From Clostridia bacterium (lineage in GTDB: Bacteria > Bacillota > Clostridia > RGIG6154), in assembly GCA_017410375.1 (NCBI GenBank), contig JAFQQW010000025.1, forward strand, positions 1 through 52,492: a stretch of 52,492 nucleotides of DNA, read 5' to 3'. This document shows positions 4,101-51,730 of this stretch, piece after piece (positions within the stretch are counted from its first letter, which is position 1; every line of letters starts with the position of its first letter). The notes beneath the pieces are model-generated. The model was not told the origin of the DNA. It did not search any database and was given only the letters and a program-made list of their open reading frames with translations. The translations under genes were made by a program, and so were the position numbers.

Positions 4101-5713
4101 ATCCGTATGAAGGACCGGAATACAACATGTTCTACTATACCCATGTTGCACCCTTTGCGGCATTGGCGGAAGATTTCCTGATTACAGAATTCAAAACCCG
4201 TTCGAATGGAAAAGTGTCTTTCCCTGAAGTGCATTTTGACGGCTATTCCTACTTTACTGCAACCCAGTACGGTGCGCGTCCCGGTCAGATGTACGGAGAA
4301 CAGGATTTATGGCTGTGGAATACAGACGGTATTATGGAAACCTCTGATGTGAATGTAAACTTCCTGGCTGGCAGAAAAGATGGGGTAATGGGTCTTGCGC
4401 TCATGAATCAGTCTCAGAATGAGGTAACAACCGAAATTACTTTGGGTGCAAAAGTACCGAAGTTTACAGGCGAAGCGACCCTTTACGCACTTGACGGAAG
4501 TCAGTCTGCCGTGCAGGTAACAGACGGTAAGTTTACTGTAACCATCCCTGCAAAAGGTATGCAAACTGCAATTTTAAAGATTCCCGGCATGAAAAAGCCT
4601 GCCTACGCATTGGATGAAATCAAATATACCACAAACTACGGTAAAACTGTTACAACGCACAAAAATGGAAGAGGCTATTTGATTCAGCTGAATCCCGAAA
4701 AATATCATGCGTATGTATTTATTACCGATCAGGATATTAAATCGTTGCGTGTGGACTACGAAGTGAACGGTAAAAATGAAAGTGTTGTGTGCGACAGCTA
4801 TCCCTTTGAAGCTATTATTCCCGTAAATTCGCCCGATGCAGAGTTAACTTATAACTTATATGCAACTCTGGCAAACGGTACCGAATCCTATTACGGCAGC
4901 GGAAAACTGGCGCCGATGTCCAATGGCCCTGCAACAAATGACATCAGTAAATTCACCCCCGGTGTTTCGAATATTACAGATAACAGACTTGATTTGAGCG
5001 GTATGGAGATGTCTCCGGAAATCCCGAAGAGCTTTAAAGGTTCTAAACCGATTGTGTCTTATATCGGTGTGGGCGTGGGAACATTACGTGTTGTTTGCTT
5101 GCCGATTGCGTTTGGATATGATGTGAAAGAGAATACCGCAACAGGCTTGTATGTACGAGGCACCTTAAAACTTATTGACGGTTCGGGCGGATTTAATTTC
5201 GAGGCCCGTGTTTTGAGCAACGAAGCACGTTCTGATGTTCTTGTTTTGAATGTTGCGGAAACGCCTGATATGCACTTAGAGTATAAAACAGAAAATATGG
5301 AGCTTGTTAATTTTGAGGTTTCCAGAACACCTTTTACAGACAAGCTTCCTGAAATTGACAATTCCAACGTGCCTACCATCGAGGAGTTGGCAATGAAGAA
5401 TCTGCCCAAGAACTTTAAGGAACAACCCCTTAATGTAGATTATGCCGGTGTTGGCGTCGGAACCATCCGTATTGTTGCCTTTACAGACAATATGGATTAT
5501 GAAGTGAAGTCCGATATGTTCTTTGGTACCAGAGTGAAGGGTAACTTTGTTCATAACACCACCAAAGCAGTTACACCGTTTGAAGGCAAGGTTCTGGGCA
5601 ACGAAGTGCGTTCAAACAGTACCATTATTGTTGTTGAAGCATCCGTTCCCGGTAATGAACCTATTGAAAACTTCACATTGACAGATTGTGTTCTTTTCAA
5701 ACCCGAGAAATAA
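1136..5713 (+). CDS. Giant secreted CAZyme-like protein A (stalk domain, toroid-like core)
   Basis: 1525 residues. A signal peptide (1-25, cleavage after VSA) is followed by a copper-amine-oxidase N-terminal-like stalk domain (~27-142, with the paired motif INDRTMVPMRKIFETLGA / LNGRTLVPLRFISESFGA). Next come a carbohydrate-binding-like beta module (~150-285), a large beta-rich domain (~295-620), a helical region (~625-1050) resembling an alpha/alpha toroid, a beta-sandwich typical of glycosidase C-termini (~1075-1145), an Ig-like domain, and two copies of an unnamed ~100-residue module (~1290-1395 and ~1415-1525). The helical part carries WWWRGD at ~880 and TEHARTAGHSN (E925, H926, H932, N934). 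The beta/helical/beta order is that of many glycoside hydrolases and polysaccharide lyases, but I cannot assign a family. The stalk domain does not imply copper or amine oxidase activity. Tandem paralogue of 5859-10436. Confidence 0.85.
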   Translation: MKRCISLLLTLCMLLSLVPAIPVSAEQPISVYVNGEKLEFDVDPVLINDRTMVPMRKIFETLGAVVSWNGDSETASGVRNGVRVSVTIDSPKARVGNETKTLDQPPVLLNGRTLVPLRFISESFGAKVEWVDETQTVNITMEGTANETYYFAAKAFEALGSWELSSDCLFGSTGSKDDETGTVPGTEPAVTRLNVNQEGTYKVWVLARDFATNRQGHRYFNVAIDGKMSDMKVGTHGKDGFHWQEAGLFILKPGSHTLELHDTSGYWARCQAVLVTADKDFVPSVDAIGEYAIKYSSAINQSIPVCVYPYWATQPMQESDVISIENDGYKVNFIKGQGAKGALIQNEIFVKKNGEWLKVKDKSEQFGFLMMAADHSETATPRVKGQVITSNLEGEFFKQTLEINGKQETITASNFYESGVPYWFLANNMQKISDTEVKLFFPTKAGATVTAICSLDALCNEPKFQLNAKFDKDGAYSFLFFSGDAIDESKFERVLAPFMFTREYVPTTGVFSEVYMFTPMVSFVTNTADGGTMTEGVVVDPTSTVQDVAYVENARYGFVLRDEQGGMRPALCAPMFGTPASNFKAGDTYSFAYRVFAGTDGWYETFKHVSQDIYEVKDIRTNYHATLNEAIFNITDLMADDLYGAWDEKTKGFYYAEMDHTASQCNPLEIVQRYLLSEDEEFYEERVVPTIAFLLSRQNNHFNRYLDDESYMGTKKLGLSPNISGSAMYTALYKMSQGRMPYLLDAALTKNTKDGLAGVAAQESFYEITGDAQYKENVKKAADAIISSYETEAFKRGDDLLLNAGFVSGDFNTELSALIYTYELTGEQKYLDAAEEVGRNAALTLSSLGYQNGYDDNMYHVDPQTAADAHVIYADNTDAWWWRGDVQWRIGFPHGTWGPLEGTVSTIDEDDAPGWTFATAGLTTEHARTAGHSNFILMNTWAPSFLKLAQYTGDEYFTTQARNAIVGRFSNYPGYYIDRYYTDYMKERYPYEGPEYNMFYYTHVAPFAALAEDFLITEFKTRSNGKVSFPEVHFDGYSYFTATQYGARPGQMYGEQDLWLWNTDGIMETSDVNVNFLAGRKDGVMGLALMNQSQNEVTTEITLGAKVPKFTGEATLYALDGSQSAVQVTDGKFTVTIPAKGMQTAILKIPGMKKPAYALDEIKYTTNYGKTVTTHKNGRGYLIQLNPEKYHAYVFITDQDIKSLRVDYEVNGKNESVVCDSYPFEAIIPVNSPDAELTYNLYATLANGTESYYGSGKLAPMSNGPATNDISKFTPGVSNITDNRLDLSGMEMSPEIPKSFKGSKPIVSYIGVGVGTLRVVCLPIAFGYDVKENTATGLYVRGTLKLIDGSGGFNFEARVLSNEARSDVLVLNVAETPDMHLEYKTENMELVNFEVSRTPFTDKLPEIDNSNVPTIEELAMKNLPKNFKEQPLNVDYAGVGVGTIRIVAFTDNMDYEVKSDMFFGTRVKGNFVHNTTKAVTPFEGKVLGNEVRSNSTIIVVEASVPGNEPIENFTLTDCVLFKPEK

Positions 5714-11547: not shown

Positions 11548-11621
11548 TATGAAAAAAACTCTATAAGGGGAGTCGTTTGTCCGAAATCGAAAAACTTTTT
11601 TCTAAAAAATATAATTTTCTC

Positions 11622-11650
11622 TTTACTTTTTGATTTTGTTGTGTTACAAT
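11622..11650 (+). promoter_or_regulatory. Distal sigma-A promoter candidate for the SLH protein
   Basis: TTTACT (11622-11627), 17-base spacer, TACAAT (11645-11650). It lies upstream of the conserved element at 11661-11746, so the SLH gene may have two promoters. Confidence 0.45.
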
Positions 11651-50206: not shown

Positions 50207-50263
50207 TTATTTGAAATATCTCTTTAAAAGACCTTCTAAGCCCTTACCATGACGAGCTTCGTC
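50207..50263 (-). pseudogene. Rubrerythrin 3' remnant
   Basis: The frame ends in DEARHGKGLEGLLKRYFK and a stop at 50207. DEARHGK...GLLKRYF is the highly characteristic C-terminal helix of rubrerythrin-family diiron proteins. The upstream frame stays open to ~50387 but its sequence (for example KSVGNGKIEVAKNAANADK) no longer resembles rubrerythrin, and there is no start with a ribosome binding site. The normal terminator still follows it. The simplest reading is that a rearrangement or element insertion removed the 5' part and joined the last ~18 codons to foreign DNA. Confidence 0.6.
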
Positions 50264-50389
50264 AAGAACCTCTGATTTTGGAATGCTGATTTTATCAGCA
50301 TTTGCGGCGTTTTTTGCTACTTCGATTTTGCCATTTCCCACGGATTTCCCACGAGTTAAAATTTCCCACGAAAAGTCCGTCAAAGCCAG

Positions 50390-50629
50390 TTATTTCAAGG
50401 GTTTGCAGGCTAAAATCTCGTCAAAATCCAAACCGTCGTATTTTTCTAAAAATTCCAGTAAAGATTTGCGTGTAACTTTCCTGCATCCAAGCTTAATTGA
50501 CTTAAGGTGTCCGGCGTTAATCAGAGTATAAACAAAATTTTTGTTTACTTTAAGTATTTCCGCTATTTCACTTATAGTATACAATAATTCCCCTGATTTG
50601 TCAATGTTCCTGTTTAATTTTCCGGTCAT
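50390..50629 (-). CDS. Excisionase-family DNA-binding protein
   Basis: 79 residues. A MerR-like/excisionase helix-turn-helix (LYTISEIAEILKVNKNFVYTLINAGHLKSIKLG) is followed by a beta-wing and a short C-terminal helix (VTRKSLLEFLEKYDG), as in the Tn916 Xis and HTH_17 families. Such proteins bend DNA at element ends and steer the integrase towards excision. Here no integrase follows; 120 bases downstream is the rubrerythrin remnant. It lies 15 bases after the sigma-like gene, probably co-transcribed. The ribosome binding site GGAGGTG precedes the ATG at 50629. Confidence 0.82.
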   Translation of the reverse strand: MTGKLNRNIDKSGELLYTISEIAEILKVNKNFVYTLINAGHLKSIKLGCRKVTRKSLLEFLEKYDGLDFDEILACKPLK

Positions 50630-50644
50630 GTTAACACCTCCTGA

Positions 50645-50989
50645 TTATGCAATATGTGCAAGTCCCGAACGTAGTTTTTTTAACGCTTTATTTTTCTGCA
50701 CATATATGTTGTTTGCACTTGTGCCAAGCAAGTACGCTATCTCTCCGGCAGTCAAGCCGCCGATAATGTTCAAAACAATAACAATCCTTTCAATCTCGTG
50801 GAGATTTAGAATTGCACTTATTACCATTTCGTTTTCAAGCTCGTTTATAATTATCCGGACCACCAATTTGTCAAATATCTTTTTGCAACCTTTTTTGATT
50901 TCTTTTTCAGTCAGTGGAACTGAGTCAGCAAAATCAGTTTTGTTTTTGTCGTACCAGTTTATAATTATGTATTGCATATAGGCTATCAT
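50645..50989 (-). CDS. Sigma-70 region 4-like regulator of a mobile element
   Basis: 114 residues. The C-terminal half is a sigma region 4-like helix-turn-helix: LNLHEIERIVIVLNIIGGLTAGEIAYLLGTSANNIYVQKNKALKKLRSGL. The N-terminal half (MIAYMQYIIINWYDKNK) has the look of the small sigma-like proteins encoded beside xis in Tn916-type conjugative transposons. ATG 50989 has GGGAGG 8 bases upstream; a TTG at 51004 overlaps that site. The gene is preceded by an unusually long, structured, repeat-bearing leader. Confidence 0.75.
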   Translation of the reverse strand: MIAYMQYIIINWYDKNKTDFADSVPLTEKEIKKGCKKIFDKLVVRIIINELENEMVISAILNLHEIERIVIVLNIIGGLTAGEIAYLLGTSANNIYVQKNKALKKLRSGLAHIA

Positions 50990-51004
50990 ATCATCGCCTC
51001 CCAA

Positions 51005-51250
51005 TCCGTAGTATGCCCCTTTTTAACAGCCGTTGGCTCGGCGTACATAGCATTTCAGCTCTCCCGGGTTCTCCGCGAGGACCGTAGTCAAGTATCAATT
51101 ACTGGCTGTATGTTTCATCGCATCCCGATTTGCCAATCAGTCGGTTTATAGTCTGATAGTTCTCGCTCGTGCCCTGTCGGGCAGTCTTGGCGTATCAACT
51201 AACGTGCTGGCAGTTTTGCCGCCCATACAGCTTTACGATTAAAAAGGTGC
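51005..51250 (-). ncRNA. GC-rich structured region upstream of the sigma-like gene (possible leader RNA)
   Basis: This stretch is clearly richer in G+C than the AT-rich DNA on either side and contains many short hairpins, such as GCCC-TGTC-GGGC at 51172, GGCA-GTTT-TGCC at ~51210 and GCCG-TTGGCT-CGGC at ~51030. All frames are broken by stops or lack a start with a ribosome binding site. It could be a regulatory leader RNA, an origin of transfer, or a decayed gene; I cannot choose. Confidence 0.35.
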
Positions 51251-51329: not shown

Positions 51330-51575
51330 CATTATACATATCAAAGGTGTACGTACCGTTCACCTTATAAAAAATAATTTATATTTTTTCAAATCCTCCT
51401 TTCTTAAAACCCATTTTATCGGGTAAATATGAAAGAAACCTTCACATTTAAAAAATTTTTTTCAAAAATTTTTATCTCCCCTTTCTTGACACCCATTATA
51501 CAGGTCAAAGGTAAAAGCCAGCTTTACCTTTGAAAATTTTTTTTGATTTTTTTGAAGTTTATTATCTCTCCGCTG
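51330..51575. repeat. Three tandem 82-bp repeats, each with a hairpin
   Basis: Units start at 51330, 51412 and 51494 with CATTATACA, CATTTTATC and CATTATACA. Each holds a hairpin: AAGGTG/CACCTT at 51344-51366, TAAATATGAA/TTCACATTTA at 51424-51450, TCAAAGGTAAA/TTTACCTTTGA at 51505-51533. An A-run/T-run follows, then a CTCC-rich stretch that reads on the minus strand as a ribosome binding site (GAAAGGAGG, GAAAGGGGAG). Stems differ in sequence but keep pairing. No coding region accounts for them. Confidence 0.6.
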
Positions 51576-51680
51576 ATTTTAGTGTAACATCTAAATACCG
51601 CAGATTTTACGGGTAATTCAAAAATTATTTCAAGAACTTTAAAAAAAGTTTTGAAAGTGCGCATTAGCCTTATAAAAACA

Positions 51681-51730
51681 AAAAGACCATAGAAAACCTA
51701 TCAACGATAGAATTTCTATAGTCTTCTTCA
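51681..51730. terminator. Long bidirectional hairpin terminator
   Basis: AGACCATAGAAA pairs with TTTCTATAGTCT, enclosing an inner CTATC-AAC-GATAG hairpin. It is flanked by A4 on the left and TTC on the right; on the minus strand a T-rich tail follows. It separates the repeat region from the sigma operon. Confidence 0.6.

Follow-up and report, generated by a model that had tools for sequence, protein, structure and literature searches.

Close to the end of a 52,492-nucleotide stretch of DNA from a Clostridia bacterium (analysed in full and called the window below), three repeat units each contain an inverted repeat whose sequence changes between copies while its pairing is retained. Are these units parts of an RNA switch, namely the multi-unit attenuator or leader-peptide control of mobile-element genes originally predicted for them, or do they act as DNA? 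Judging from sequence comparisons, the repeats are fairly likely to be tandem promoter-operator modules on the minus strand, not an RNA attenuator or leader-peptide switch.

The repeat array

The exact 82-bp register of the original prediction, with units at 51330, 51412 and 51494, was recovered with the same coordinates. Self-identity at lag 82 was 0.567, against 0.442 at the next best lag, and none of 1000 dinucleotide shuffles was as high (99.9% limit 0.447). Since the copies are only 55-61% alike, the repeats are absent from the TRF list. In addition to the features predicted before, every unit carries a TATAAT-like box. Scores below refer to R1, a covariance model built from the seven units of the window and of a second genome (G056, see below), and to the model R2, which was built partly from loci picked with −10 box and dyad in view.

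51671..51723, minus strand: terminator-like hairpin, GACTATAGAAA...TTTCTATGGTC then TTTTTGTTTTT, found by eye
51571..51653, minus strand: unit W4, upstream of W3, with a weak dyad and −10 box TACACT (R2 32.7 bits)
51494..51575, minus strand: unit W3, from the alignment (R1 81.8 bits, R2 66.4 bits), with UP-like A/T block 51533-51543, dyad 51506-51532 (centre 51519) and −10 box TATAAT 51495-51500
51476-51485, minus strand: Shine-Dalgarno (SD) sequence GAAAGGGGAG following W3
51412..51493, minus strand: unit W2 (R1 76.0 bits, R2 64.4 bits), with UP-like block 51451-51461, dyad 51424-51450 (centre 51437) and −10 box TAAAAT 51413-51418
51395-51403, minus strand: SD sequence GAAAGGAGG following W2
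51330..51411, minus strand: unit W1 (R1 76.3 bits, R2 57.7 bits), with UP-like block 51369-51379, dyad 51342-51368 (centre 51355) and −10 box TATAAT 51331-51336

Two of the three predicted ribosome-binding-like segments are present as GAAAGGGGAG and GAAAGGAGG; the third is only the weaker GCGGAGAG (51566-51573). W1 has no SD sequence after it, and its predicted transcript would reach the pemK motif described below. W4, whose match has an E-value of 0.015 within the 142 kb searched and of 0.29 over the whole genome, is probably a decayed fourth copy that extends the array. The terminator-like hairpin upstream of it would insulate the array from minus-strand transcription arriving from that side; it is absent from the terminator-scan output, and its loop is longer than the limit of the scan. 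A further match in the same genome (C68, 25.8 bits) was rejected as an A/T-rich segment with no HTH gene beside it.

Relatives and origin of the tandem state

A blastn search of 60 related genomes yielded one true homologue, an array of four units in G056, a genome of a different family in the same class (E-value 1e-21, 76% identity over 140 bp). Directly upstream of this array we observed a second tandem repeat (L024:365-560, roughly CAGCC.TTTTTCAACCC.TTT.TGAGAAATTCTTAAA.AAATCGTTCGACA, twice).

With R1 as query, modules in single copy were recovered from G101, G004 and G015 (52-57 bits), each directly upstream of a stand-alone HTH_11/DeoR-like gene of ~110 aa. The HTH protein as query gave HTH_11-type matches in 91 genomes at E-values ≤1e-5, with ~30 stand-alone genes of this size, and most of the upstream regions of the stand-alone genes, which were thus located without a DNA model, contain the module. 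About 30 single-copy relatives are known to us, directly 5' of ~110-aa HTH_11/DeoR-like genes in mobile elements. The module was found in 25 of 391 genomes of the class, and tandem copies in only two of the 391, the genome of the window (G000) and G056. Of the weak R1 matches in G103 and G107, the former was left out and the latter kept, because a second copy with an identical dyad is found 7 kb from it. The exact dyad pattern matched 30 stretches in wider genome and viral contigs, none of which scored with R1, and these were dismissed as chance; the plasmid and phage collections that we searched gave no match.

Along 141 bp that include a single gap, units W2-W1 are collinear with units G4-G3 of the G056 array, and W1 is identical to G3 in 59 of 82 positions, compared to 45 and 47 for W1 against W2 and W3 (column-shuffle maximum 56). 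The collinearity and the closeness of W1 to G3 indicate that the tandem state was inherited, being older than the divergence of the two arrays, and that the individual units have been maintained separately. Single-copy loci have two SD sequences 75-92 nt apart, and recent slippage between these, considered as an origin of the array, is disfavoured by the same collinearity and W1-G3 identity.

Anatomy of the module

The 31 modules that we compared align without gaps, and the T, A and T of their −10 boxes are invariant. Estrem et al. reportedly placed the UP element at −59 to −38. In the modules, an A/T block (AAAAANTTTTTN.AAA) stands in fixed register and agrees with the published UP consensus, AAAWWTWTTTTNNNAAA (PMC2412878). 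A −35 box is absent, its mean best match being 2.0/6 and thus below the shuffled value of 2.64 ± 0.16, and TGn occurs in only 6 of the 31 modules. The distance from the −10 box to the start codon is variable (about 23-42 nt among the aligned modules).

The centre of the dyad lies 19 nt upstream of the first base of the −10 box, which is about −31, even among loci with dyads of unrelated sequence, and it does so in all three W units. When the −10 box was chosen blind to the dyad, which avoids the circularity of the R2 locus choice, this phasing had a mean z of 1.91, whereas none of 5000 random phasings exceeded 0.90. Symmetry at the −19 offset was 0.84 where a leader ORF is lacking, 0.65 where one is present and 0.83 in the arrays; at neighbouring offsets it was about 0.25 overall and 0.08-0.41 in the arrays.

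Connection to the HTH regulator

Dyad similarity correlates with the identity of the HTH proteins encoded next to the modules (Mantel r 0.49; partial r 0.45 with flanks controlled, p 0.0005) in a set of 24 loci that are related to one another. Further, one element (L151) has two promoters 9 kb apart with a common dyad, AATACTCCGAAAAAACTGCGGAG, and unlike flanks; two promoters in L152 likewise share this dyad between unlike flanks, and L150 contains a dyad-sharing pair with another dyad. Outside the arrays, only 2 of roughly 27 elements scanned repeat their dyad at a second promoter. The L150 modules (4331-4412 and 11567-11648) precede a glycoside-hydrolase-like (Rv2525c-like) gene and a 177-aa gene and flank a 1893-aa ORF; the module is thus not confined to HTH genes.

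True members of the stand-alone HTH family score 106-135 bits. None was found in the genome of the window, where the best match had 27 bits (NiaR-like by inspection), or in G056, where it had 31 bits and lay in a 257-aa frame, and no HTH_11 gene adjoins the array in the window. As neither genome has a detectable partner, the array may be an orphan that lacks its own regulator, or its dyads may be recognised by some other protein. The sigma-4-like protein encoded downstream (see below) was considered as cognate regulator, and the module has no convincing match upstream of its homologues.

DNA operator or RNA hairpin

The compensatory changes noted in the original prediction are real: they affect 6 of 10 pairs over the seven units of the two genomes and 9 of 9 pairs over 24 homologues (63 cells, against 19.2 after shuffling, 0/500), although the latter count only partly avoids the choice of loci with −10 box and dyad in view. 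Pairing is thus conserved in the homologue alignment that had been proposed as a check. Mismatches in the dyads were nearly as often A.C (5) as G.T (6), which counts against RNA wobble. The phasing to the −10 box, the lack of a −35 box, the tracking of the HTH protein and the shared dyads all point to the binding site of a DNA-binding protein, and what was taken for a hairpin is most plausibly an operator within the DNA of a promoter rather than an RNA structure.

An RNA-level leader, with translation of a short ORF through the hairpin that is coupled to the downstream gene or attenuates it, would draw on the fact that the hairpins do fold (z −2.4 to −2.7 for the minus-strand RNA of W1-W3) and that 14 of 24 single-copy relatives have an SD sequence and ATG before the dyad. 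In most of these 14, the ORF has 26-36 codons, runs across the module and stops 1-26 nt past the HTH start codon. We nevertheless consider such a leader improbable. The frame of the ORF through the dyad varies between relatives, and the ORF is absent or very short in the remaining ones, whose dyads are stronger. The hairpin keeps its phase with the TATAAT box and not with SD or ORF, G.U pairs are not in excess, and transcription is predicted to start only past the hairpin. The window itself is a poor source of the short minus-strand peptides once proposed: W3 has no ORF, W2 one of 5 codons from TTG and W1 one of 10 codons from TTG, 2 nt after GGAGG and without an ATG. The minus-strand stems are followed by TATAAT-like boxes instead of a U-run, and inside the array the only terminator-like match, at 51505-51533, belongs to the plus strand, so that the coding strand offers neither a translatable leader ORF nor a stem with U-run terminator. 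In one branch, the leader ORF is probably a real small ORF with coupling to the HTH gene, read from longer transcripts; since the other branch lacks it and the window has only a broken form, it cannot be what the modules do in common. Of the proposed control switch there remains a multi-unit minus-strand region of pairing-conserved dyads upstream of mobile-element genes, without the attenuator or leader-peptide mechanism.

Genes downstream of the array

The array is followed on the minus strand by an RNA motif and two small genes of a mobile-element remnant:

51045..51101, minus strand: pemK RNA motif (Rfam RF02913; 39.2 bits, gathering threshold 34.8), between the array and the next gene
50645..51004, minus strand: 119-aa protein with sigma-70 region 4 only and no region 2 (PF08281, 1e-7)
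50390..50629, minus strand: 79-aa excisionase-like HTH_17 protein (PF12728, 5e-13; TIGR01764, 2.4e-8)

Homologues of the sigma-4-like protein occur in three genomes (G079, G015, G193), and searches of wider genome contigs with the sigma gene gave no relatives. In G015 (L118, L187), the pemK motif and the sigma-4-like and excisionase-like genes have the order of the window without an array, showing that operon and array are separable. By eye, A/T blocks resembling those of the module precede the sigma-4-like gene in L117 and L119.

The pemK motif is a separate RNA element outside the repeats. In the window and in L113, L114 and L157, it adjoins the module or the regulator gene of the module, and in these three L loci the module comes first, followed by the HTH gene and then by the motif; in L117, L118 and L119, sigma-4-like genes are close to it (L113:9187-9282, L114:4643-4738, L117:2249-2362, L118:1459-1522, L119:1141-1236, L157:1968-2063). 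Small mobile-element regulators of the HTH_11 or sigma-4-like kind are thus its recurrent neighbours, and downstream of it lies a serine recombinase in L113 or else sigma-4-like and excisionase-like genes; we noticed no pemK toxin gene beside its copies in the window or the L loci.

A 58-aa ORF at 50207-50383 gave no identity. The region 3' of the excisionase-like gene (50207-50390) and its counterpart in L187 (560-770) have CGTGGGAAATCCGTGGGAAAT repeats, followed by similar short tails (GACGAAGCTCG.CATGG, and ...EARHGKGLEGLLKRYF in the window) and a terminator-like hairpin; this may be an attachment site, where the end of the element meets a host gene at its 3' end.

Proposed mechanism and direction of control

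The module anatomy, phasing, homology, dyad-regulator correlation and shared operators described above can be combined into a working model. The UP element would serve the alpha subunits of RNA polymerase, and the 27-bp palindromic operator, centred at about −31, would take the position of the −35 box in front of a sigma-A-type −10 box, after which W3 and W2 would supply SD sequences. In the relatives, the likely cognate of the operator is the small stand-alone HTH_11/DeoR-like protein encoded directly downstream. A dimer of it on the operator would recruit polymerase in place of sigma region 4, leaving the promoter off without the dimer. In the window, three such promoters would feed the pemK-motif RNA and the sigma-4-like and excisionase-like genes of the remnant, and the excision functions of the element would respond steeply to the regulator.

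The array has the architecture of a promoter whose activator replaces the −35 contact, with no −35 box, a good −10 box and a site in its place. Activation is the most likely direction of control, given an operator in the −35 position as at phage Mu Pm and T4 middle promoters. Its weak point is that nearly the same picture would be expected if a repressor bound across the core promoter. Most regulators of the DeoR type repress, and the HTH protein might do so on the same module, with UP element and −10 box basally active and the dimer blocking polymerase in negative autoregulation. The operator does overlap the core promoter, and an UP element can boost weak promoters (PMC4390567). However, a −35 match below chance and the scarcity of TGn predict low basal activity, and repression offers no reason for the loss of the −35 box; we regard it as rather unlikely. 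We find it very improbable that the array is a decoy, an orphan set of operators titrating the regulator of an incoming related element. The restriction of tandem copies to two genomes without a detectable HTH partner would fit, but these are two cases from incomplete assemblies, with the G056 array at a contig end, and the −10 boxes retain key bases that a pure decoy would not need.

Returning to activation, we tentatively suggest an undescribed, widespread promoter class in which an element-specific HTH dimer replaces sigma region 4 near −31, and which has in some cases become an inherited array controlling an excision operon. R2 provides a searchable signature for control promoters of this group of integrative elements in the class, and the naturally co-varying operator-regulator pairs could allow a recognition code to be derived.

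Comparison with known systems

At phage Mu Pm, a Mor dimer on an inverted-repeat site at −43.5 replaces the −35 box, next to a −10 box and an UP element (PMC4390567). Like Pm, the module has a −10 box, an UP element further upstream and, where the −35 box would be, an inverted repeat, which in the module is the putative site of an activator dimer. Yet the Mor site has 16 bp and is centred at −43.5, whereas the dyad has 27 bp and is centred near −31, and Pm is single-copy while the modules of the window are in tandem. Mor is, to our knowledge, not an HTH_11 protein. T4 middle promoters have a MotA box centred at −30 in place of the −35 box beside a good −10 box (PMC2988021), and the module has its putative activator site in this place too. 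In contrast to the long palindrome of the module, which has no known AsiA-like partner, the MotA box is not palindromic, is bound by a MotA monomer and works only with AsiA. The likeness to Mor and MotA is therefore one of architecture only, and if activation is true, the module would be a further, unrelated way to replace the −35 contact, used by mobile elements of anaerobes, in which little is known of excision control. The single-copy relatives also resemble autoregulated DeoR/HTH_11 regulators of integrative elements, with a small HTH gene directly 3' of a palindromic operator, but differ from them in having an UP element and no −35 box in every copy, and the array of the window differs further in being tandem and apart from any HTH gene.
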